From a virus, in IMG/VR virus record IMGVR_UViG_3300030389_001849, positions 1 through 35,635 of that record: DNA of 35,635 bases. One strand, given 5' to 3'. The notes under the pieces were generated by a model. The model did no database searches and was not told the DNA's origin. It saw nothing but the letters and a program-made list of their open reading frames with translations. Position numbers and translations under genes: made by a program. Positions 1,744-35,635 of the stretch are shown here, piece by piece (positions within the stretch are counted from its first letter, which is position 1; every line of letters begins with the position of its first letter).

Positions 1744-2181
1744 TTACTTACTTGACTTCTTCTCGATGGTACGTCCTGCAAAGTACGCACCAAAGGCTGT
1801 AAGCATAAGCAACTCAAGTAGAGAGACGTATGAGTCCTTTACGTTGAATGCAACATTGTCCATACTGTCTATCATCATTGTGATCATAAACATGGCCATC
1901 AGGCATATAAGTGTAACAGGGCGTATAAGTTTAGCCAGCTTAACATCGCTGCCCATGTCAGCCTTCCAGCGCTCTGTTACATTTTCCTGAAACCTAACCT
2001 CTGCATCGATCACACGTTGAGCTTCTCCAGAGTCAACCTCTGGATCTTTATCAATTAGGTTCTTTACAACTCCCAGTCCACCGCTATCTGGTAGAAGGTC
2101 TCCCACTACACCTAATACTTGTGGTGCTTTTTCTGCTAACCAAGATCCAAGCTTGGTTTCTTTAATTTTCTTTTTACTCAT
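1744..2181 (-). CDS. Holin, 3TM (gene-transfer-agent release) type
   Basis: A 145-residue membrane protein, probably the holin that permeabilises the inner membrane at lysis. An N-terminal soluble part (residues about 1-80) includes an amphipathic segment with the RWKADMGSD and KLIRPVTL stretch typical of the 3TM holin family (ExxxRWxxDxxS...RP). Two clear hydrophobic helices follow, at about 87-108 and 118-138, and the tail is Lys-rich. Its start overlaps the last bases of the giant internal protein gene by 8 nt, so it is the last gene of the late block and probably translationally coupled. Its stop directly abuts the nrdJ stop on the other strand. No endolysin or spanin is recognisable beside it. 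Family assignment is by motif and topology only. Confidence 0.75.
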   Translation of the reverse strand: MSKKKIKETKLGSWLAEKAPQVLGVVGDLLPDSGGLGVVKNLIDKDPEVDSGEAQRVIDAEVRFQENVTERWKADMGSDVKLAKLIRPVTLICLMAMFMITMMIDSMDNVAFNVKDSYVSLLELLMLTAFGAYFAGRTIEKKSSK

Positions 2182-5100
2182 CTGTTCCTATTATTTTTCT
2201 TATTGCGTCCAGCGGGATTATACCCTCTGGCTTTGGGTTAATATACTGACCTCTGTATTGATAGTATAATGCGTTGAAGTATACAATCTCTGCGCGTTCA
2301 GCTTCTTGAATTTCGTAAGTAGCATTTGATCTATCTAGGTAAGGTAGCTCCCTGGCTTTTAATTTTGCCTTCCTGTAGATATCTAGCATTTTTTCCGTTT
2401 CTTTTAATTCGTTTTTCAACCTCTGCACACCTGTAAAATCTAATCCCTGCACATCTCCCTCACCTTTTCTTATTTCTCTATCAAATTGACCTATGTCTTG
2501 TTTGTTTTTAACAAATAAATCGTAGTCATAGAATCTAGAAGGCCCACCGTAGATTGTTTTAAGTATAGGTACATCTGAGAATCTAACAGTAGGAAGGTCT
2601 GAGCTTTCTGTTGTAAGTAGGTTGTCAATAAACTCTTCTGGATTATCAGAAGCTAAAAGTCTTTGTGCTTTTCTTTCGGCTATACTAAACGCAGCTTGAC
2701 CTAATCCAATACCTTCTTCAACAAAGTCTCCAGCTCCTCCCCAATATGATTGTAGTATATAGTAATAAGGATCTGGATTCACATCATAACCTCTAGATAT
2801 GTTGTCTGTCCCGCCTGTCATCTCATTTAAAGCGTCAGCTGCATCTTGAATCCAATCTGGAGATCTAAACGATAAAGTATTCTCTGGAACTTCAGCCCCA
2901 AAAGGATATTGAGTTCTCCTTACAACACCACCAAAATATGTTTCGTTAAATGCAAATGCGTCAAGAGGTGCTTTTGCTATCGTTGGTGTTACAGATTTTA
3001 TCGCTGCTCCACCCAATGTTCCTGAATGGCCCATGGCTATAGGAGAGAAAGAGCTGTGAGCTGACAATCCAAAGAAGGTCATCGCATCCCAGAAATCTCT
3101 TTCACCAGCTGCAACTTCAGCGAGTATCATCCCTACATTATTAAATAAATTATACCCATATCCTAGAGGAACATTTATATAATTTTTACCATCAACACCA
3201 ATAATAAAACCTCTTTCTTTTTTGTAATCAGCTATCTTATTGTAGAATAGCTCGTCATCTTCATCTCTATCAGATAGAGCCATGTTTATCATTGTCTGCA
3301 TTGCAGATAGTAAAACCATACCTGCAGCTAACTTTCTAGGTGCCGTAACTCTCTTCTTCCACGCTGGCGCTTCATCAGGGTTGTTAGGTAATTCTTCTTT
3401 TATACCTGAGAATGTTCTTGAAAATCTAGATAGACCCTGTACGGATGCATTAAAGAATAAGAAGTTAGCGTTAAGAGACGGTCCCCATTCGCCAGACTTG
3501 TTGAAGTTAACTGTTATGTTTTTAGAAAGCTGAGCTGCTCTTGCAGCGCTAACTCCAGCCTTTCTAGCTTCTATGTAAGCAGATAGCCTGATAGCATTTT
3601 CAAATGCCTCATTTATACCTGCCACGTATTCAAAGAACTGACCAGGCTTTTTGAATACAAACTCTGCACCTTTACGTAAAGTTCCTTTTGTCTTAGCTTT
3701 CTTTCTTAAATTATCCACGACATTGTTAATTGCATCAGAGTAGGAGAAACCTGTTCTTCCTCCAGTCGCTTTCCATTCCTCAATATATGCAGCCATTTCT
3801 GGAGATACATCTTTACCAAAGGCAGCTTCGTTGAGCAAAGCTTTCAAAGATGAGAAAGACCCTTTAATCATCTTCTTTGTAAAATCCTTAGTATCTAAGT
3901 CGTAGCCAGTAAGGATACCGCCTTCGTTCTCCAACTCAGCCAATACATTAAATACAGCTCCGTGTAGATCCCTAAAGAAGTTACCCACAAAGAAGGCTGG
4001 GTTGTACTGCGTAAATGCGTTACGCATAAGATTCATTGGACCAGACATGATCTTAAATACAGAGTTAAGCTTTTCTTGAGTCATGCCATTGAGGGCATCT
4101 GCATAGTCTGTTTTCTTAAAGTATATAAAGTGCTGCTCACCGTTTATTCTTATAGGAACAAAGTGTCTATCTGCTTTCATCTGGAACATAGTCATTGGAA
4201 CTTTATTTCCTTTGTCATCTATCGTAAGCTTAGCATTGTTTGCTGAGTATACATTCCAAACCTTTTCGTTAGGATTATTTTTGACAAGATTATAAAGAGG
4301 TAACATAGCCTGATCTTTACGAGCTCTTTGCTGAACAGCAGCATTTTGCATTATGACGTTTGCAATTAGATTTACGCCAGTTTTACTGGCTCTACCCTTA
4401 GCTGCTTTTGTTGTTTTTCCATATACAGACATACCAGATCCCCCAGTTGGATAGTAGTTTTCACTGTCTTCCATCTCATCAAAAGCAAGACCGCTAAGAG
4501 GAACGTAGTTTTCGTATAAATTTTCCCAAGCCTCTATCCTCTCTCTTGTCTCCAAACCTCCCTCCAGCATTGTCTCCCTTGTGTTCTTTACAACTTCGTA
4601 GACTAAGTTTGCAACCCTTACCATATCTGGAGACTCAAGCTCTTCGATAATCTCATTTGCCTCCTGAGTTGTCATACCAGACCCACTTTCTAACTCAGGC
4701 CTTAGATTTAATATAAAGTTATTTCTTTCCTCTGCGTGTTTAGCGTACAGGTAATCTGATACTTGTTCTGCGGTAAGATCAGATTCAGCCATTGCATTCA
4801 TTATCAACTCAAGTCTAGCCTCTAGAGCTTCTATGTCAGTACGAACCATACCGTACATTCTATCCATTGCAAGCTCAAAGTCTTGCGACTCTGGGACTTT
4901 GCTTTTTCTAAACGCTTCTATATCCTGCTGCAGCAGCATAACACCAGAGTATTTATCTTGAAATTTTATAGCAAGCTTTTCAATCAAAGCCCCATAAGGG
5001 GTAGACTCAGACTTCTCCCACGAACTGTTACCTTCATTGTATATTCTTCCTGGAAGTCTACGTGCTTCAAGGCCGTCGATATCTGCTTGACTAAGAGTTA

Positions 5101-8100
5101 ATCCAAACTCACTTGTGCTTCTCTTTCCTTTTCTTTTTTCTTTATGCTCCTGAACTATTCTTTCTGCCTCTTCTACACTTAATTCCTGTAAAGTCGTAGG
5201 GTCTTTCATTATGTTTGTCAGACCGCTAGCAGATGTAAATCCTTTGAACCTAAAATACGTCACTGGGTTTGAAGTAAACACTGCTCTTTCATATCCTATG
5301 TTTTTTGCAGCATCTCCAAACGCAGGTAATTGAGAAGCGTTGTCAACTTCCCTCACTGCTTTAGATTCTCTAACTTGTGACGGCACAACGAAAGCAGACG
5401 CTGAGACCATATCATTAACCTCTGCATTTTTAAATGCTGGATCGTTGATTGCATTAAGAATATCTTTTCTGTTTATTCCTAAGTCTTTCTTGTCTAGAAT
5501 CCTTAATACGGTTTCTAAAAACTTTTGTCTAGGGTCATTTGTAAATCCTAACTGTGTTGCATTATCAAGATTTTTAAATACTGTTAAGAAGTTTTTCAAA
5601 CCTTTTGGAAACTCTAACTCTGAAGATCTTTTACTAACTATATCCTTATCAATAATTACTTGAAGATCACCAGTGTTCTCATCATAACCCAGACCTTCTT
5701 GATTATTAGAGTTCATTATTCTTTCAAACTCTGCGCTTACTCCTTTTCGTTTTAAGCCTTGATTTATAGCCTTAGCTAAAGCAAGACCTGCCCCTTTGTC
5801 GTACTCAGAATCAAGATCTGTTGAACTAGCCTTAGCCCATTTATCAAGCATGGTCAACACATTGGCAAATGTTCCTGGACTATTAAAGCTGTTTTCTGGC
5901 TTAGCTACAGTGAATATAGTTATGTAATGCTTACCTTCTGCATTAACAATACTGTTGTAGACGGATCTCATTACACTACCTCCAGCATGGTTGGATATAA
6001 TATTTAATTTTCCTTCTGTAAACTTAGATAGATTCTCTGCACCATGAGGACCGCTTGTGTTATTGTATTTGTGAGAGCTCTTTCTTTTGCCTTTACCTAA
6101 AGGTTTGAAAGGTAGAGATATCTCTTGGTCAGACCTCTCTCTAGCATACCTGTGTACATTGACAACTATATCAGATGCATCTAGGTTGTTGTCTATTTGA
6201 TATTGTCTTAAGAATTCACCAAAAGTAGCAAACTCATTTGTTCCCTCAGGGTAGCTACCAGCCGCATCTCTTTTTTCTAGCCCTCCTAAATCAAGGTCAG
6301 TCCCACTAAATACATCTCCTTCAAAAGACTCGCCAGCCTTCAGCCTGTCCATCCTTTCGTCAGCTGCAGCTAGCTCTTCTTTATTCACCATGTGTAAATC
6401 TGAAACTCTTCTTTGATAAGATTCAGAATCTTTAGGGAGCAACTGCCATGGTTCTCCATATATCTCCACCTCCTGCATGAGGCGGTCCGCTTTTAGCGTA
6501 AATGACTCAGGAGTTTTCTGTCCACTAAGATTAAATAGTTCTGGATAGTCTTCTTTAAATATAATAGCTTTCCCGCCTTTTAACGCGTCAAGATCTTCGC
6601 TTGTAAGGCCTAACTCCCTTAAAGCCATCATATTTGCTATAGCTATATTTTCAATATGTATGCTCTCTTCGAGCTCTTGTATACCTGTTTTATCGCTCCA
6701 GGTAGCTCCTGTTCTGCCTGGCTCAAAGTCAGAGTAATTAAAATAAAAACTATAACCAACTCTTTCTTCAACATCCTTTTCTCTGTATATATCGCCTCTT
6801 TGTTTACGTATATCCTGTAACTCTTCTGTAAGCAGTTGTTTGCGCTCCTCCTCCAGTCGAGGTCTAGCTACATATCTCTGAACTGGTCCGTCCTTCCAGA
6901 AATGCATTGCCTCGACATTTACAAGTCTTACTTCACCTGTTGCTGGATCTGTATATTTCCAAGGCATCCACTCTCCTCTTAGATTTGTAAACCTAGTGCT
7001 CTTTCCTCCAGAAGTGATGTATGGGTACGAGTTAAAAAAGTGCTGCCTGTTTCTAAATTCTTTACTGTTGAATCTTGCTTCTTGCTGCCTTATATTTGTT
7101 TCGTGATATCTACCCATGGATGTCCATTCAAGAGTAAACGGTTTATCTTTTGGTAGATTCCAAACACTCATAGGCTTTCTGTTCTCTAGCCCTTCTATCT
7201 CTGTAGACGTTTCTTCTTTTATCCCGTGTATTTCTTGAGACAGTTTCTCAGTACCTAAAGTAACTTTTTCTTTTCTTATAAACTTAGCAAACTTCGCTGC
7301 TATTTGAATCATAGAATCAGCCCTTCCAATTTGAAGGTTGTCACCAAAAGCTTTGTTGTCTTTGAATAACTTAAACATCAGTGACTCAATACCACCTGTT
7401 ATCTCACTAAGTTTAATATCTAGAGCTTCAACAGCTCCAGCTTCACCCCCTTCCTTCTGAACATAAAACTCTCCACCAGCAACAGCCTCTAAGAATTCGT
7501 TTATAATCTCTTTCTCTAAGTTTTCTTTTGAATAACTATCGTATTTTTCTCTAGTTCCGTCTAATATCCTTTTTATAGATCCGTTATTATTTGCTATTGA
7601 TATTATTTCAGCAACAAGCTCCTCCCTTTTTGCTGTATCATTTACTATATCTCTAAGTTCAAAGTGTCCAACCTCATGAATCATATCTGCTATAACCTCT
7701 GCTTTAACTGCTCCCTCACCTGTAAATACGTGAATCTCATCGGTCATTTCTTGATCTCTCTCTTCCTGAGTAGCCTCTTTGTATAAAGCGTTACCACGCT
7801 TACTTACAGATCTGATAGATTCTTTTGTTTTATGAATTATAACCTTTACCTCACCTTTACCTTTCTTAGCAAAACCAGCTGCTATAAGATCTAATTCACT
7901 TAAACCTTCTTCTCCTTGTATGAGTTCTCCTTCATCGTTAACCTCCAACTCATTATATCCGTCTATTGGCGTCCTAGACTTCCAATCACCAATACCTAAA
8001 GCTCCTTTATCTCCAGTGTAATTTGCTGCATCGAATGAATTAAATTCTATAATAGAGCTAACAGCTAACATTCTCTCCATGAGATTGTTATACTCCTCGT

Positions 8101-10936
8101 TGAATTCTTTTCTTGCCTCGTCAGTAAGCTGCGTAGTCTCCTCCATAAACTCCTCACCCAGTTCAAAGTTTCCATGTAAATTACCTTCAGAGTCCCTCCA
8201 TGTGTTATCTTCCTGTTTGTTGAACTCTGTCTTAACAGCTTCTAAATATCTTAACCTGTTGTCAGCGACAATCATTTCTGCTATAAGATCCCATCTGCCT
8301 TTTTTAGCAAGCGCTTGTATACCTGCTTGGTTTCTATTAAATGATATATCCGCTTTAGCCATTAAATCTTCAATAGATTTTACAGCATCTTGTTGCTTTT
8401 TGGTTAAATCTTTTAATGTTAGTTGTGCGGCTGGAGATTTTGAGGTTTCTTCGTATACAACAGACAAGTATTCAGATGCCTTCTTTTGATCACTTTTAGA
8501 AAGTCCACCCATAAAGTATCCGCTATTGGCTAGCTGCCTTTTAAAAGACAGGGCTGCCATTTCATTAAACTTGTCAGGCTTAAACATCCTCTGATACTGA
8601 GTCCTTGCGTTAAATATCACACTACTTCCTCCACCAAAGTATTGGCCTATATTACCGCCAATAAGGCCTGACTCATGCATGTCAGCCATAAACTCCTCAT
8701 TGCTGTACTCGATGCCGCTGGCCACAGAATAATTGTATTTTTGTAACCCCTCAGTTAAAGCTTCTGCTAAATACTCTTCAGCATAGCCAAGCCTAGAGGC
8801 TAGGTATGTACCACCAGCAAACTCTAAGGTTTTTCTTGCGGCGCTATATCTACCTACACTTGTTACCTCATAAGGCAAAAAACTACCTCCTTTATATACC
8901 TTACCGTCAATAGTGATACCGCCTTTCGGCGCTCTACCTTGTACCACTTTAGGCGTACCCTTAAATACGTTATATGGGTTCACTCTATTCGTAAGCCTGT
9001 TTAAACCAAACTTTCCTAAACCAAAGAAGGTCACACCGCCTATAAACTCACCAGCCATCTCAGCACCCCCGTGTCTAAAAGCATATCCTCTTCTCGCACC
9101 AGGAGTTAAGTCTTTCATATTTGGATCATTAAATGACCTGTAGTATGCTTCCGCACCAGTTGTGTAACCTAGAAACGACGCTTGCACAAGAGATGGAAGA
9201 ACAATACCACCGCCAGGAACAATTACACTTGAGACAATACCCAAGCCTATTCCTGTTAGTGATGTAGGTAAAGACTCTATACCTGGTAGTTTAATTTCTT
9301 GAAAGTCAACATCTTCGTATGCTTGGTTTAAAACCCTATCGTAATTTTCTGAAAGATGATACCCATTAAAAAGTGTGGTAGGATCAAGCAGGTCTAGCTG
9401 CTCTGCAGTTATAGCATATTTATTTTGTTGAAACTTAAGATCAGCAATTTTTCTATCTCTTTGTTCCTGTCTTTCAAGAAAAAGATTCCTGGCGTTTTCA
9501 GGATCAAAATCTTTACCGAAATTTTCAAACCCGAAAACATCCTCCATAAGTGGATCGACTATATTCTCAGCAACAAACGAACCTATAGAAATATTTGCTG
9601 CATCCAGTTGGTTCTTCATGTTTACAACACCTATCTCCCAACTAAGAATTCTGTCTTGGTTTCTGGTGTTTCTTTCACCAACTGTTGAGTCCTTATCTAG
9701 AAATAAAGCTATGTCTCCGTTCTTAAAACCTAGAGTTTTTGCAAATTCAGTTGCCGCTTTGTTAAAGTGAAGGTCTGCAAATATCTTAGACTCTAAGTTT
9801 TTTATGTAATCATCATAAGATCCGTAACCCAGCTCTTCTATAAGCTCTGCACTCATACCTCCTGAACCTGATCGCTGCATCAGCTTTCTTTGCTCTTCAG
9901 TAAGATAGGTTGCTCCAGGAAGATTTAAACTAAAGTTAAGCGCCCACTCTTCTTTAGATAAAGCTACATTTTCCAGAACATAGTTATCGAAGTATTTTCT
10001 AGCCTCAAGAGATCTTGCTGTATCGAAATATTCTTTGGAAAAGTTTCCGTCGTCATCTAATTTAGCTTTTTCTTCTTCAATCTGTTTTTCTAAATTGGCT
10101 ATGTCTGATTCAAATACAGTCCCATATCTTCTTGCTCTCTTTAGGTTATCTAATTTGCTAGTGAGATCATCAATTTTTTGCTGTATAACTTCTGTTTGTT
10201 CTTCTTGAGTCGATAAAATTCTTTCATCTATCATCTCAATAAAGCTGTTTATCCCATCTGGGGTAGGGTCTACGCCTAGATCAGCAAGTATAAAACTAGC
10301 ATTATTATATACAGTCCCGTCTGATTTGAAAGCGGTCCCTGCTTTCTGTAGCTCTAGGTTGCTTAAGTCTAGCTTACCACCAGAGGTGGCTAAATCTTCA
10401 AATAGCTGATCAATGCTACCTGGTGTAGCCATCCTAAGTATCTTCTGCCAAGCAAGATCGGCCTGTCCCCCTTCTTTATAGAATTCATTGTAGCTGTCTG
10501 CAGCTCTGTTGTATTCATCCACACTACCAAATCCAGACATATATTCATCATATGCCTCGCTTACTTTTGCGTTATACGAATCTACCTCTTCCTTTGATGG
10601 AACAAATCTTTTTGTCTTACCTGTAGGTTGAAGACCAGAGTCCGTTGTAAAACGATAATCTGGCATATAAGAAACAGATGGTTTAGGTCCAGCTTTCTCT
10701 AGTATAAATTCGTTAAGACCTGACTCTGTTGGCCTAGCTTGAGTTAAAGCGCTAAAGTCTGGTATTGAAAAGCCTAGTATTTCTTGAAATTGTTTGGGTA
10801 AGGTTCCCCAGTCTATTTCGTATGCGTTTTGGCTTTCATTCTGCTCTTGAGTATCCGATACCGTGTCTACTTCGTCCAATACTGATATAGACTCCAATGA
10901 AGGATCTTGAGCATCTAAATCCAAACCCGAATCCAC
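2174..10936 (-). CDS. Giant internal/ejection virion protein (polyvalent) with zincin motif; main frame, start probably upstream via frameshift
   Basis: A 2920-residue open frame, probably an internal protein ejected into the host with the DNA, like T7 gp16 or other large polyvalent phage proteins. An acidic N-terminus is followed by a coiled coil (about 240-295), a Gly-rich hydrophobic stretch (about 540-640), and the metallopeptidase motif HEVGH at 1087-1091 with a downstream NEFLEA glutamate region. LYAKHAEERN lies near 2063 and NPAFFVGNFFRDLHG near 2312; the last two are signatures of large polyvalent-protein-associated domains. The frame as it stands has only a GTG (10936) and no ATG for about 75 codons. 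A good ATG start (11057) lies in another frame just upstream, separated by a T10 run, so the real product probably begins at 11057. Virion location is inferred from gene order. No polymerase or lytic transglycosylase motif was seen. Confidence 0.8.
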   Translation of the reverse strand: MDSGLDLDAQDPSLESISVLDEVDTVSDTQEQNESQNAYEIDWGTLPKQFQEILGFSIPDFSALTQARPTESGLNEFILEKAGPKPSVSYMPDYRFTTDSGLQPTGKTKRFVPSKEEVDSYNAKVSEAYDEYMSGFGSVDEYNRAADSYNEFYKEGGQADLAWQKILRMATPGSIDQLFEDLATSGGKLDLSNLELQKAGTAFKSDGTVYNNASFILADLGVDPTPDGINSFIEMIDERILSTQEEQTEVIQQKIDDLTSKLDNLKRARRYGTVFESDIANLEKQIEEEKAKLDDDGNFSKEYFDTARSLEARKYFDNYVLENVALSKEEWALNFSLNLPGATYLTEEQRKLMQRSGSGGMSAELIEELGYGSYDDYIKNLESKIFADLHFNKAATEFAKTLGFKNGDIALFLDKDSTVGERNTRNQDRILSWEIGVVNMKNQLDAANISIGSFVAENIVDPLMEDVFGFENFGKDFDPENARNLFLERQEQRDRKIADLKFQQNKYAITAEQLDLLDPTTLFNGYHLSENYDRVLNQAYEDVDFQEIKLPGIESLPTSLTGIGLGIVSSVIVPGGGIVLPSLVQASFLGYTTGAEAYYRSFNDPNMKDLTPGARRGYAFRHGGAEMAGEFIGGVTFFGLGKFGLNRLTNRVNPYNVFKGTPKVVQGRAPKGGITIDGKVYKGGSFLPYEVTSVGRYSAARKTLEFAGGTYLASRLGYAEEYLAEALTEGLQKYNYSVASGIEYSNEEFMADMHESGLIGGNIGQYFGGGSSVIFNARTQYQRMFKPDKFNEMAALSFKRQLANSGYFMGGLSKSDQKKASEYLSVVYEETSKSPAAQLTLKDLTKKQQDAVKSIEDLMAKADISFNRNQAGIQALAKKGRWDLIAEMIVADNRLRYLEAVKTEFNKQEDNTWRDSEGNLHGNFELGEEFMEETTQLTDEARKEFNEEYNNLMERMLAVSSIIEFNSFDAANYTGDKGALGIGDWKSRTPIDGYNELEVNDEGELIQGEEGLSELDLIAAGFAKKGKGEVKVIIHKTKESIRSVSKRGNALYKEATQEERDQEMTDEIHVFTGEGAVKAEVIADMIHEVGHFELRDIVNDTAKREELVAEIISIANNNGSIKRILDGTREKYDSYSKENLEKEIINEFLEAVAGGEFYVQKEGGEAGAVEALDIKLSEITGGIESLMFKLFKDNKAFGDNLQIGRADSMIQIAAKFAKFIRKEKVTLGTEKLSQEIHGIKEETSTEIEGLENRKPMSVWNLPKDKPFTLEWTSMGRYHETNIRQQEARFNSKEFRNRQHFFNSYPYITSGGKSTRFTNLRGEWMPWKYTDPATGEVRLVNVEAMHFWKDGPVQRYVARPRLEEERKQLLTEELQDIRKQRGDIYREKDVEERVGYSFYFNYSDFEPGRTGATWSDKTGIQELEESIHIENIAIANMMALRELGLTSEDLDALKGGKAIIFKEDYPELFNLSGQKTPESFTLKADRLMQEVEIYGEPWQLLPKDSESYQRRVSDLHMVNKEELAAADERMDRLKAGESFEGDVFSGTDLDLGGLEKRDAAGSYPEGTNEFATFGEFLRQYQIDNNLDASDIVVNVHRYARERSDQEISLPFKPLGKGKRKSSHKYNNTSGPHGAENLSKFTEGKLNIISNHAGGSVMRSVYNSIVNAEGKHYITIFTVAKPENSFNSPGTFANVLTMLDKWAKASSTDLDSEYDKGAGLALAKAINQGLKRKGVSAEFERIMNSNNQEGLGYDENTGDLQVIIDKDIVSKRSSELEFPKGLKNFLTVFKNLDNATQLGFTNDPRQKFLETVLRILDKKDLGINRKDILNAINDPAFKNAEVNDMVSASAFVVPSQVRESKAVREVDNASQLPAFGDAAKNIGYERAVFTSNPVTYFRFKGFTSASGLTNIMKDPTTLQELSVEEAERIVQEHKEKRKGKRSTSEFGLTLSQADIDGLEARRLPGRIYNEGNSSWEKSESTPYGALIEKLAIKFQDKYSGVMLLQQDIEAFRKSKVPESQDFELAMDRMYGMVRTDIEALEARLELIMNAMAESDLTAEQVSDYLYAKHAEERNNFILNLRPELESGSGMTTQEANEIIEELESPDMVRVANLVYEVVKNTRETMLEGGLETRERIEAWENLYENYVPLSGLAFDEMEDSENYYPTGGSGMSVYGKTTKAAKGRASKTGVNLIANVIMQNAAVQQRARKDQAMLPLYNLVKNNPNEKVWNVYSANNAKLTIDDKGNKVPMTMFQMKADRHFVPIRINGEQHFIYFKKTDYADALNGMTQEKLNSVFKIMSGPMNLMRNAFTQYNPAFFVGNFFRDLHGAVFNVLAELENEGGILTGYDLDTKDFTKKMIKGSFSSLKALLNEAAFGKDVSPEMAAYIEEWKATGGRTGFSYSDAINNVVDNLRKKAKTKGTLRKGAEFVFKKPGQFFEYVAGINEAFENAIRLSAYIEARKAGVSAARAAQLSKNITVNFNKSGEWGPSLNANFLFFNASVQGLSRFSRTFSGIKEELPNNPDEAPAWKKRVTAPRKLAAGMVLLSAMQTMINMALSDRDEDDELFYNKIADYKKERGFIIGVDGKNYINVPLGYGYNLFNNVGMILAEVAAGERDFWDAMTFFGLSAHSSFSPIAMGHSGTLGGAAIKSVTPTIAKAPLDAFAFNETYFGGVVRRTQYPFGAEVPENTLSFRSPDWIQDAADALNEMTGGTDNISRGYDVNPDPYYYILQSYWGGAGDFVEEGIGLGQAAFSIAERKAQRLLASDNPEEFIDNLLTTESSDLPTVRFSDVPILKTIYGGPSRFYDYDLFVKNKQDIGQFDREIRKGEGDVQGLDFTGVQRLKNELKETEKMLDIYRKAKLKARELPYLDRSNATYEIQEAERAEIVYFNALYYQYRGQYINPKPEGIIPLDAIRKIIGTDE

Positions 10937-33264: not shown

Positions 33265-33591
33265 TTAACAATTCCATTTTCTTAGCGCTTTATTTATTCT
33301 AGAGTTTGGATCTCTAGCTGTCTTAGCGCTTGTTAATCTTTTCTTCATTCCACTCATCCTTGCACAGAAAGACTTCCTGCGTTTAGCAGCTTTACTGCCT
33401 TTCTTTAGCTTGGAAGGTTTTGTTGTTACAGCAGTTTTTAATTTACTACCTGGATTAGCTGCACGATAACGTCTAACACCTTTTGCTGTAAGGCCTCCAG
33501 ACTTTGATTTGTCTCCGCTTTTTACAGAAAATTTCTTAGGCATCCTACCACCCCTACGCATACTCTTACAACCGTGCTTACAAACCTTCAT
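33265..33591 (-). CDS. Very basic Lys/Ser-rich protein of a marine-phage family (DUF6321-like)
   Basis: 108 residues with a strong net positive charge. The N-terminal CKHGCKSMRRGGRMPKK carries a CxxxC. The C-terminal block (LTAKGVRRYRAANPGSKLK, TAVTTKPSKLKKGSKAAKRR, KSFCARMSGMKKRLTSAKTA, RDPNSRINKALRKWNC) is an unusually well conserved family in marine phages, which I believe is DUF6321. The charge suggests binding to DNA or to an acidic surface; no function is established to my knowledge. Joined to the exported thioredoxin-like gene by a TAATG overlap. Confidence 0.72.
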   Translation of the reverse strand: MKVCKHGCKSMRRGGRMPKKFSVKSGDKSKSGGLTAKGVRRYRAANPGSKLKTAVTTKPSKLKKGSKAAKRRKSFCARMSGMKKRLTSAKTARDPNSRINKALRKWNC

Positions 33592-33929
33592 TAGAAATCA
33601 CTCATTATGATTTCATCAACCGCTTCCTGCACTTCATCTTGAGTTGCCTCAAGTTGCATCATAATATTGCCTTGAAATCGTTTTACCTCTTCTCCATCAT
33701 TAAATACAATAACCGTTGGAACTACAACTATCTTGTGTTCTTTTTGTAGTGCTGGGTCAGCAGCTATATCTACTCTTTTTCCTTTACAGTCGCTAAGCTT
33801 ATCAATCCAATCTACACTGTTAGCAGAGTTAAAACTTGCATTAAACTCAACAACACATACTCCTGAATCTGGTATACGCATACCAAGAGATGTGACTGCA
33901 AATAAACATATGTAGATTAAATTCTTCAT
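33591..33929 (-). CDS. Exported thioredoxin-fold protein lacking the CxxC active site
   Basis: 112 residues. The N-terminal MKNLIYICLFAVTSLG is a probable signal sequence. Then comes a thioredoxin-like domain: VCVVEFNASFNSANSVDWI is the beta1-alpha1 region, with FNSAN in place of WCGPC. KGKRVDIAADPALQKEHKI follows, then VVVPTVIVFNDGEEVKRFQG with the cis-Pro (PT) and the usual 'FxxGexxxxxxG'. With no CxxC it cannot act as a disulfide reductase, so a binding or structural role in the periplasm is more likely. The two other Cys (C24, C48) are not in a redox motif. It overlaps both neighbours (ATGA and TAATG), inside the envelope-related gene block. Confidence 0.72.
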   Translation of the reverse strand: MKNLIYICLFAVTSLGMRIPDSGVCVVEFNASFNSANSVDWIDKLSDCKGKRVDIAADPALQKEHKIVVVPTVIVFNDGEEVKRFQGNIMMQLEATQDEVQEAVDEIIMSDF

Positions 33930-34210
33930 TGTAGTTTATCTATTTTTTCTTCGATACGGTCAAGATCTTCTTTTAGCTCTGATACATCTTCCTGCGTCGT
34001 CATAATTGTTTGACGCACCAATTGATCCTTCATATCAAACTCCATACGTGTAATCTCTGCAGGTAGAGGCTCAGGCAGTTCTTTAGCTAAAGCTATGTCC
34101 GCTTGAAGAGCAAACCACATCCCAATAAGGGCCGCTAGCCCTGCTGCACCCATACCTATTGTTTTTAGGTCTAGTGTTACTTTAGTATCCTCTCCAATTT
34201 GTTTTGCCAT
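33926..34210 (-). CDS. Membrane-anchored coiled-coil protein (94 aa)
   Basis: 94 residues. The N-terminus (GEDTKVTLDLKTIG) is soluble, a hydrophobic helix spans about 18-36 (GMGAAGLAALIGMWFALQAD), then a Pro-rich hinge (ELPEPLPAEI) and a charged helix 55-94 with heptads ending EDLDRIEEKIDKLQ. The 'DTKVxLDLKTIG' start is shared by small membrane proteins in other marine phages. Topology (one TM plus periplasmic or cytoplasmic coiled coil) recalls inner-membrane spanin subunits, but there is no partner lipoprotein and I do not claim that function. It sits in a TAATG/ATGA chain with the beta-barrel-like and thioredoxin-fold genes. Confidence 0.65.
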   Translation of the reverse strand: MAKQIGEDTKVTLDLKTIGMGAAGLAALIGMWFALQADIALAKELPEPLPAEITRMEFDMKDQLVRQTIMTTQEDVSELKEDLDRIEEKIDKLQ

Positions 34211-35283
34211 TACAGTATTACATAGTTTAGTCCAACAGAAAAGTCATGCCATTCTCGATTCCAATACTTATTGTATTTGCCCTCTAAGAATAAGCCAAGA
34301 CTCTTGTTTAATCTCCATCCAAAGATAAGGCCTGCACCGTAATCTATCCACTGCCCCCCTTCGGTGGTTTCAAAGTACGAAAACTCATCGTCAGTCTTAA
34401 GGTGATAAGGCATTACACTTGCCCAGCTGTGCACCCAAAACTCTTTTGAATATTTGTAATAATCATAACCTAAAACTAAAGAATAGTTCCAAACATTAGG
34501 AAGTTCACTTCTCTTTCTAGCTACATAATCGTCAATAACTTGAGGTATAATAACCTGCTCCCACACATCAATACTGTTTGCTACAAGCGTTCCATCAGGC
34601 GCAAAGTATTCACCGCTTTGTACATCTACGGTATACCCTTCTTGTAAAGCAAGGCTAGTGTAGTGAATATTGTTGTTTGAAAGAATCCAGTCTTCTAAAG
34701 CGTCATAACCGTATGGTTCAGATATACGCTGAGCAACCCCAATGTTAAAACTGAGGCGGTCGTTGGCGTTGATTCTCAACCTCTGAGATCCCTCAAAGTA
34801 TTCTACATCTGCAAAACCATCTTGTAGATACTCAACCTTGGTTATCCAGTTCTTCGCTACATAACGCAAAAAGTAATCTTGATCAAGAAAATTTCTACCC
34901 TGTTGTCTACGCCAGTCTGCCTCAAATAAAAACTCAAACCCTTTTACTTTACCAATGTTTGCTGCATCGCTGTAAGATTTTTCCGTGCCATCATAAAAAA
35001 CATTAGCCCTGTTCTCATATCCAAACCTAGCGATCTTACGAACACCAGCTGTAATTGAATAGTCAAATGGAGTTTCAACAATATTAGTCTGCAACCCATT
35101 TGTTACAGAATATATATTATCGTCAGCTACAGAATTACCACCGCTAAACGCAGTGTAAAACGTAGCATACTTAAACGTCTTTTTTAGTGTTTGTCCTTTT
35201 GCTTCAAGTGATGTACCTAGTATAAATACCAGCACCATAATGGCAATATAGACGAGCGATGCAAAATCTCTTTTCTGAGTCAT
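34210..35283 (-). CDS. Outer-membrane beta-barrel-like protein with signal peptide
   Basis: 357 residues. Residues 1-31 form a signal peptide: MTQKRD, a hydrophobic core (LVYIAIMVLVFILGTSL), then EAKGQ with cleavage likely after it. The mature part is rich in Tyr, Trp, Phe and alternating strands (FDYSITAGVRKIARFGYENR; KGFEFLFEADWRRQQGRNFL; RLSFNIGVAQRISEPYG; WNYSLVLGYDYYKYS; YGAGLIFGWRLNKSLGLFLE). It ends DFSVGLNYVIL, as a last barrel strand would. This is the profile of an outer-membrane barrel, uncommon in a phage late region. Possible roles, all inferred: altering the host surface against superinfection, outer-membrane disruption at lysis, or a host-derived protein. One-base TAATG overlaps link it to both neighbours. 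Confidence 0.7.
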   Translation of the reverse strand: MTQKRDFASLVYIAIMVLVFILGTSLEAKGQTLKKTFKYATFYTAFSGGNSVADDNIYSVTNGLQTNIVETPFDYSITAGVRKIARFGYENRANVFYDGTEKSYSDAANIGKVKGFEFLFEADWRRQQGRNFLDQDYFLRYVAKNWITKVEYLQDGFADVEYFEGSQRLRINANDRLSFNIGVAQRISEPYGYDALEDWILSNNNIHYTSLALQEGYTVDVQSGEYFAPDGTLVANSIDVWEQVIIPQVIDDYVARKRSELPNVWNYSLVLGYDYYKYSKEFWVHSWASVMPYHLKTDDEFSYFETTEGGQWIDYGAGLIFGWRLNKSLGLFLEGKYNKYWNREWHDFSVGLNYVIL

Positions 35284-35471
35284 TAGAATTCAAATCCAAA
35301 GTTGAGTATCATAAATCTAAACCTTGGGCAAGGCTTCTTTTTCTTTTTGTCACATGCAGGACAAGGACATACGTGAACCTGAAGTACGTCTACCGTACCT
35401 AACCTAAAGTTTAGTTCATACTTTTCTTTTTTGTTGTAAGAGTTCCAACTGTTAATCCAATTTACTTTCAT
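35283..35471 (-). CDS. Small Cys-rich protein (62 aa), unknown
   Basis: 62 residues. The first half is polar and aromatic (VNWINSWNSYNKKEKYEL). The second half carries a Cys/Pro cluster, VHVCPCPACDKKKKKPCPRF, i.e. CxCxxC plus a further CP after a Lys run, which could bind a metal ion; the end is hydrophobic and aromatic. It has no signal peptide. It overlaps the T9SS-domain gene by ATGA and the beta-barrel gene by TAATG, which supports its being real. I do not recognise the family. Confidence 0.5.
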   Translation of the reverse strand: MKVNWINSWNSYNKKEKYELNFRLGTVDVLQVHVCPCPACDKKKKKPCPRFRFMILNFGFEF

Positions 35472-35635
35472 GATTTTATAATTTTCTTGTTAATAATTAT
35501 TCCATTATATTCTATTACAACCTCATATACTCCATTAGAGAGCTGTGAGAGGTCTATTGCCTTGTCTGTAGTCCCAACCACTACAAGCTGTCCAAATGCG
35601 TTATATAGGCTTGTAATAGCCTCTACGGGGGCCTG
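35468..35635 (-). CDS. C-terminal end of a secreted protein with a T9SS type A sorting domain (5' part outside window)
   Basis: The frame is open to the right edge and codes for the last 55 residues. They read AITSLYNAFGQLVVVGTTD, then IDLSQLSNGVYEVVIEYNG, then IIINKKIIKS and stop. This fits the Por/T9SS type A C-terminal sorting domain: xIYNxxGQxV, IDxSxLxxGVYxVxI, KKIIK. In Bacteroidetes this domain directs proteins across the outer membrane to the surface by the type IX machinery. The N-terminal cargo and the NPxxG-type opening of the domain lie beyond the window. Its stop overlaps the next start as ATGA, so it belongs to the same operon as the phage genes downstream. Confidence 0.8.
   Translation of the reverse strand, partial: QAPVEAITSLYNAFGQLVVVGTTDKAIDLSQLSNGVYEVVIEYNGIIINKKIIKS

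Follow-up and report, generated by a model that had tools for sequence, protein, structure and literature searches.

The 35,635-nucleotide stretch of viral DNA analysed here (the window) ends inside a gene for a protein with a type A sorting domain of the type IX secretion system (T9SS), and this gene heads a conserved cassette rather than being a lone acquisition. The cassette consists, in this order, of the T9SS cargo gene, in some cases a gene for a 62-aa protein, and the genes for an outer-membrane beta-barrel, a 94-aa inner-membrane coiled-coil protein (p94) and a secreted thioredoxin-like protein. The sorting domain, the signal peptide of the cargo, the conserved linkage, the swapping of the cargo and the phage-specific barrel were all computed here. 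With this gene set, the virus probably redecorates the surface of the infected cell. On balance, we favour late surface remodelling by a phage envelope cassette, directed chiefly against competing phages; superinfection exclusion is probably the likeliest function, with lysis or egress close behind. Phage-encoded T9SS cargo was already known; a description of the conserved cassette was not found in open-access papers. So far, the use of host type IX secretion by phages has been noted only in isolated annotations. The present analysis links it to a conserved cassette that occurs in about a hundred different marine phage loci among the matches listed, which provides a concrete and testable gene set for the rebuilding of the Bacteroidetes surface by phages.

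The window covers positions 1-35,635 of an IMG/VR virus record (G000) with a length of 42,505 bases. A PHROGs search recognised a terminase, a portal, a head protein and a holin, which bears out the phage operon context that a previous sequence-only reading of the window had proposed. The portal is about 30% identical to those of Cellulophaga phi38:1, the Flavobacterium elemo phages and Maribacter phage Panino, and the phage appears to be a relative of Flavobacteriia phages. The genes of interest in the window are the following:

1744 to 2181, minus strand: holin of 145 aa (phrog_3427); in many relatives the cassette adjoins this holin instead of the portal
33265 to 33591, minus strand: p108, a basic protein of 108 aa; downstream boundary of the cassette, with a 1-nt overlap
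33591 to 33929, minus strand: secreted thioredoxin-like protein of 112 aa, without CXXC
33926 to 34210, minus strand: p94, 94 aa, a single N-terminal transmembrane segment followed by a conserved coiled-coil-like tail
34210 to 35283, minus strand: outer-membrane beta-barrel of 357 aa with signal peptide, from an apparently phage-specific family (model and searches)
35283 to 35471, minus strand: p62, a small protein of 62 aa, optional between cargo and barrel; 4-nt overlap with the cargo gene
35468 to 35635, minus strand: 3'-terminal part of the cargo gene, with the T9SS type A sorting domain; the gene runs on to record position 37615 across a gap of 10 Ns

Overlaps of 1-4 nt run through p51 (a small ORF preceding the cargo gene), the cargo, p62, barrel, p94 and thioredoxin-like genes to p108, and the cassette genes are predicted to be translationally coupled. 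At the other end of the window, positions 1-1743 hold a fragment of a B12-dependent (class II) ribonucleotide reductase on the strand opposite to the structural genes. An ORF of 2,920 aa (2174-10936) adjoins the holin at the end of the structural module.

The minus strand of positions 35468-35635 encodes QAPVEAITSLYNAFGQLVVV...IDLSQLSNGVYEVVIEYNGIIINKKIIKS and a stop codon, which overlaps the 62-aa ORF (35283-35471) by 4 nt (ATGA), as had been seen before. Immediately past the last base of the window, inside the cargo gene, the record contains 10 Ns (G000 35636-35645), apparently a scaffold gap. The true length under this run exceeds 10 bases: the closest gapless relative (L029), whose cargo protein is 89% identical to the window copy, carries PQGVLETTRDITIYPNPASMILNV at this place, that is, 24 residues including the YPNP motif that opens the type A sorting domain. 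The low sorting-domain score of the window copy can be explained by the gap, which removes ~24 residues, YPNP included, from the start of the domain region. Counted with the gap, the full ORF (G000 35468-37615) has 715 aa; gapless relatives indicate a length of about 735 aa. TIGR04183 scored 23.7 bits with the gapped window protein (cut-off 23) and 40-47 bits in gapless close relatives, so the proposed type A sorting domain is real. PF18962 supported the assignment in gapless L029 (36.6 bits) but remained below its cut-off of 27 in the gapped protein (21.5-25.5 bits; E 6e-7, profile positions 24-74). The same domain occurs in other phages, as TIGR04183 was found in 82 of 82 cargo C-termini of the family, and a chance domain match was rejected on these grounds. 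Moreover, the sequence profile of the cargo family matches solved T9SS C-terminal domains (CTDs), including those of F. johnsoniae cargo proteins. The 10-N gap truly lies inside the cargo gene, and host DNA might have been fused to the phage contig at this point. However, gapless genes on independent contigs recur in about a hundred loci, which makes such an artefact extremely improbable, and given the gapless relatives a chimaeric join or host contamination at the gap was rejected.

Extending the analysis past the window revealed that the cargo ORF begins with MIRYLLTILFFSPVLLLSQG, which resembles a signal peptide, and rule-based prediction assigned an N-terminal Sec signal peptide (MIRYLLTILFFSPVLLLSQ) to the full ORF; the lack of such a peptide had been named as an observation that would speak against the sorting-domain proposal. 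By the same rules, a hydrophobic core is present in 66 of 71 cargo family members and a lipobox-like motif in only three. The protein contains 37 cysteines. According to alignments, it is made up of recurring beta-sandwich-like segments that bear DGDG-type motifs, of GCTDP...NYNP.AN...GSC repeats, of a segment rich in cysteine (DPYCCEV.WD..C) and of the sorting domain. An AlphaFold2 model of the L029 cargo is confident in parts (mean pLDDT 74.8); its pTM of 0.27 renders the domain arrangement unreliable. The last ~70 residues of the model (~665-734) match 8glk_D, the NucA CTD from a solved T9SS complex (TM 0.75, 2.2 Å), as well as 8glj_D and 7pq4; 8glk_D and 8glj_D are F. johnsoniae cargo CTDs in T9SS complexes. 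The C-terminus is thus predicted to adopt the Ig-like fold of solved cargo CTDs and not an unrelated fold. Outside the CTD, Foldseek gave only low-probability or low-TM beta-sandwich matches, and a Pfam search recognised nothing besides the sorting tail, neither an enzymatic nor a receptor-binding domain; an enzymatic role of the cargo was rejected for this reason.

The cargo could also be a component of the virion that attaches to particles after their release, at the cell surface or in the medium, and serves them as adhesin or decoration. Its gene lies among head genes and the GCTDP-type repeats match a protein of Synechococcus phage S-CAM3 that is annotated as virion structural. However, the signal peptide and the sorting domain direct the cargo out of the cytoplasm, where heads are assembled, and the cassette is shared with membrane proteins, so that this role seems improbable.

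The AlphaFold2 model of the barrel (pLDDT 73.9) contains about 14 long antiparallel strands, of which those before residue ~115 are less certain. Foldseek matched it to the NanC porin (E 1.8e-5) and to many outer-membrane proteins with low TM-scores. Together with the signal peptide, the modelled fold suggests a generic outer-membrane barrel with NanC/KdgM-like matches. PorV and PorP/SprF gave no sequence match to the barrel, and a chain of the T9SS complex appeared first at rank 46 among generic barrels in the Foldseek search; homology to PorV/SprF is therefore not supported. A search of BFVD returned one strong barrel match, A0A516LKJ4. For the barrel and p94, there was no match in GenBank phage records and none above threshold in curated families. 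Relatives in isolated phages were found for neither of the two, and the sorting domain matches weakly, in huge uncultured phages. The thioredoxin-like protein of the window has FNASFNSANSV at the CXXC site and its thioredoxin HMM matches are weak. A CXXC motif was found in no aligned member of the family, although one cysteine is retained as (S/N)DC. Because CXXC is missing, a redox enzyme was rejected.

Searching IMG/VR with the barrel as bait yielded 329 relatives, and 80 viral loci were kept. A T9SS cargo gene belongs to the same cluster in all 80, usually directly upstream of the barrel gene; in some loci, a second small ORF lies between the two. With p94 as bait, at least 501 stretches encoding relatives were found. 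After both sets had been merged and loci sharing 300 identical bases had been collapsed, 102 distinct loci remained among the matches listed; 81 of these encode all four proteins (cargo, barrel, p94 and thioredoxin-like) and 92 encode the cargo, the remainder being mostly cut by contig ends. Among 49 records containing relatives of the portal, the T9SS domain is present in eight, all of which also encode the barrel (8/8). Three further records have the barrel: two are cut at the contig end, and one (G008) is truly without cargo. The latter shows the order holin, barrel, p94 and thioredoxin-like gene, and no sorting domain was detected anywhere in its 65.7 kb. Judging from this record, the three membrane and periplasmic proteins can apparently do without the cargo. 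Five portal-relative records (36-78 kb) without the barrel also lack p94, which suggests that the cassette is dispensable in relatives. Thus, the sequence-only reading was right in placing the sorting domain in a phage operon and yet incomplete, as it missed the four-gene envelope cassette around the gene.

The barrel was also sought by peptide patterns in about 85,000 species, each represented by one genome, a scan that may miss distant copies. It was present on only four contigs, all derived from metagenome-assembled genomes (MAGs); of these, L180 clearly belongs to a phage, and L179 had been assigned to an archaeal bin. Among 296 Flavobacteriales genomes, a single one was positive, through the phage-like contig already found in the species scan. 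The barrel family thus seems to be phage-specific. A Flavobacteriales MAG containing one phage contig with the cassette has 42 sorting-domain matches, and therefore its cell probably has a T9SS. The sorting-domain protein indeed occurs in phages whose portal relatives infect Flavobacteriia, in line with the Bacteroidetes host that had been proposed. The cargo repeats share about 50-60% identity with T9SS-type proteins encoded on the chromosomes of many marine Flavobacteriales. This likeness and the dispensability of the cassette would suit a gene set that benefits the infected cell by adhesion or nutrient binding and has no anti-phage role (a so-called moron). However, these loci show no sign of lysogeny and the benefit would be short-lived under lytic infection, leaving little likelihood for this explanation.

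The cassette is found after the portal genes (window type), after the holin in some relatives and before the holin in others. It also occurs in a different type of phage with queuosine-type genes, where it adjoins genes for a peptidoglycan-binding amidase and holin-like proteins. Between L029 and the window phage, DNA identity rises from 79% ahead of the cassette to 84-86% inside. These several genome positions and unrelated phages suggest that the cassette moves. Moreover, the cargo gene varies between close relatives. For instance, L003 matches the window phage at 96.5% DNA identity across the portal and the first 46 nt of the cargo gene, beyond which there is no DNA match. Phages whose barrels are 95-98.6% identical encode cargo proteins of about 735 or 825 aa, which form two classes by their N-terminal part and are similar in the C-terminal part. 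Where barrels are 75-85% identical, the median identities are 85% for p94, 77% for the barrel, 63% for the thioredoxin-like protein and 44% for the cargo. The N-terminal halves of the cargo thus appear to have been swapped between near-identical phages, the barrel staying constant. Constant membrane parts combined with a variable surface part are the pattern that would be expected for a surface interaction under pressure to change.

From these data, we infer the export of the cargo, the localisation of the products, the assembly of a complex and its function as follows. The cargo would cross the inner membrane via Sec by means of its signal peptide, fold into a disulfide-rich multidomain protein and be passed to the cell surface by the host type IX translocon, where the type A domain is normally cleaved and the cargo would be attached or released. 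The barrel would be inserted into the outer membrane and p94 into the inner membrane. The coil of p94 would most likely project into the periplasm, where the thioredoxin-like protein would also reside. The four products would thus occupy successive layers of the envelope. The net effect would most likely be a redecoration of the surface late in infection that results in receptor masking or superinfection exclusion; the exposed half of the cargo would diversify through the exchange of alleles, whereas the membrane parts would remain constant. Gliding and T9SS surface proteins of Bacteroidetes are suspected phage receptors (PMC13288928). Surface remodelling that blocks competitors is favoured because the cargo is swapped and the cassette is dispensable. 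The cargo-free G008 speaks against it, as do the lysis-gene neighbours in about a third of the loci listed, which would also suit lysis; the lack of a recognised enzymatic or receptor-binding domain in the cargo is a further point against it. More tentatively, the cassette could be a widespread mobile trans-envelope machine, in which four products act as one unit with a swappable surface head for phage-phage competition or cell exit.

The main rival of surface remodelling is a role in lysis or egress, in which p94, the thioredoxin-like protein and the barrel would together act as a spanin-like bridge and disrupt the outer membrane, while the cargo loosens or displaces the surface layer. It is the main rival because of the gene neighbours, a holin or amidase lying at most three ORFs away in 36 of the 102 loci among the matches listed and both adjoining the cassette in unrelated phages, and because a secreted M43 metalloprotease is encoded near the same holin in cassette-less relatives. 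The layout of the cassette, which reaches from the inner to the outer membrane, would also be suitable, and p94 resembles spanins (Rz/Rz1) in having one N-terminal transmembrane segment and a coil and, in some loci, in its proximity to holin or amidase genes. However, the p94 tail has only ~58 aa, no lipoprotein that could serve as o-spanin partner was seen in the cassette, and the barrel is not a known spanin. Moreover, the cassette is flanked by portal and capsid genes in many loci, among them that of the window. The holin is retained in relatives that lack the cassette, and lysis is therefore presumably intact there. Finally, a lysis part would not be expected to show allele swapping in the exposed cargo. 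We thus regard a lysis function as possible but rather unlikely. The M43 (pappalysin-type) metalloprotease has a dockerin-like tail and no sorting domain (L268:4143-5285; L267 minus strand, 2664-3797 of the reverse complement), and its gene occupies the place that the T9SS cassette has in other relatives.

Lom and Bor of phage lambda and Llp of T5 are phage proteins for superinfection exclusion or lysogenic conversion that are sent to the outer membrane of the host. They are comparable to the cassette as late or accessory phage genes with products in the host outer membrane, and to our knowledge none of them uses type IX secretion. That a phage product routed through this system would be notable, as had been stated, needs tempering because phage-encoded T9SS cargo has been reported twice (PMC7468147; PMC6949934). 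For Cryophage, a hijacking of the host T9SS with possible superinfection exclusion was proposed (Bellas et al. 2020, PMC7468147). As in the present phages, type A sorting-domain proteins vary among near-identical variants of Cryophage. However, these are three recognisable enzymes or PA14 proteins, whereas a single cysteine-rich cargo with no recognised enzyme domain is encoded here, tightly linked to the barrel, p94 and thioredoxin-like genes; the available part of the Cryophage paper mentions no such partners. T9SS sorting domains also occur in proteins of the crAss-like BACON phages (2019, PMC6949934), which likewise are Bacteroidetes phages that encode the sorting-domain proteins upstream of head genes. 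In contrast, these are gut phages with BACON-domain cargo, and the accessible portion of that study describes no cassette of barrel, p94 and thioredoxin-like protein. A search of open-access journal papers found no description of the cassette either.

The surroundings of the cargo gene differ between phages. The 51-aa p51 preceding it (L002:13113-13268; relatives in L047, L052, L073 and L081) resembles the N-terminus of long fibre-like proteins at the same place in relatives, as if a fibre had been cut down to its attachment end. In some phages (L047, L073 and L078), two tandem T9SS cargo ORFs lie upstream of the barrel gene; the second encodes ~411-521 aa with a different N-terminal domain that gives a weak CARDB match. 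In others, a staphylococcal-nuclease-like gene joins the cassette (L137:1445-1822 and L179:2277-2630).
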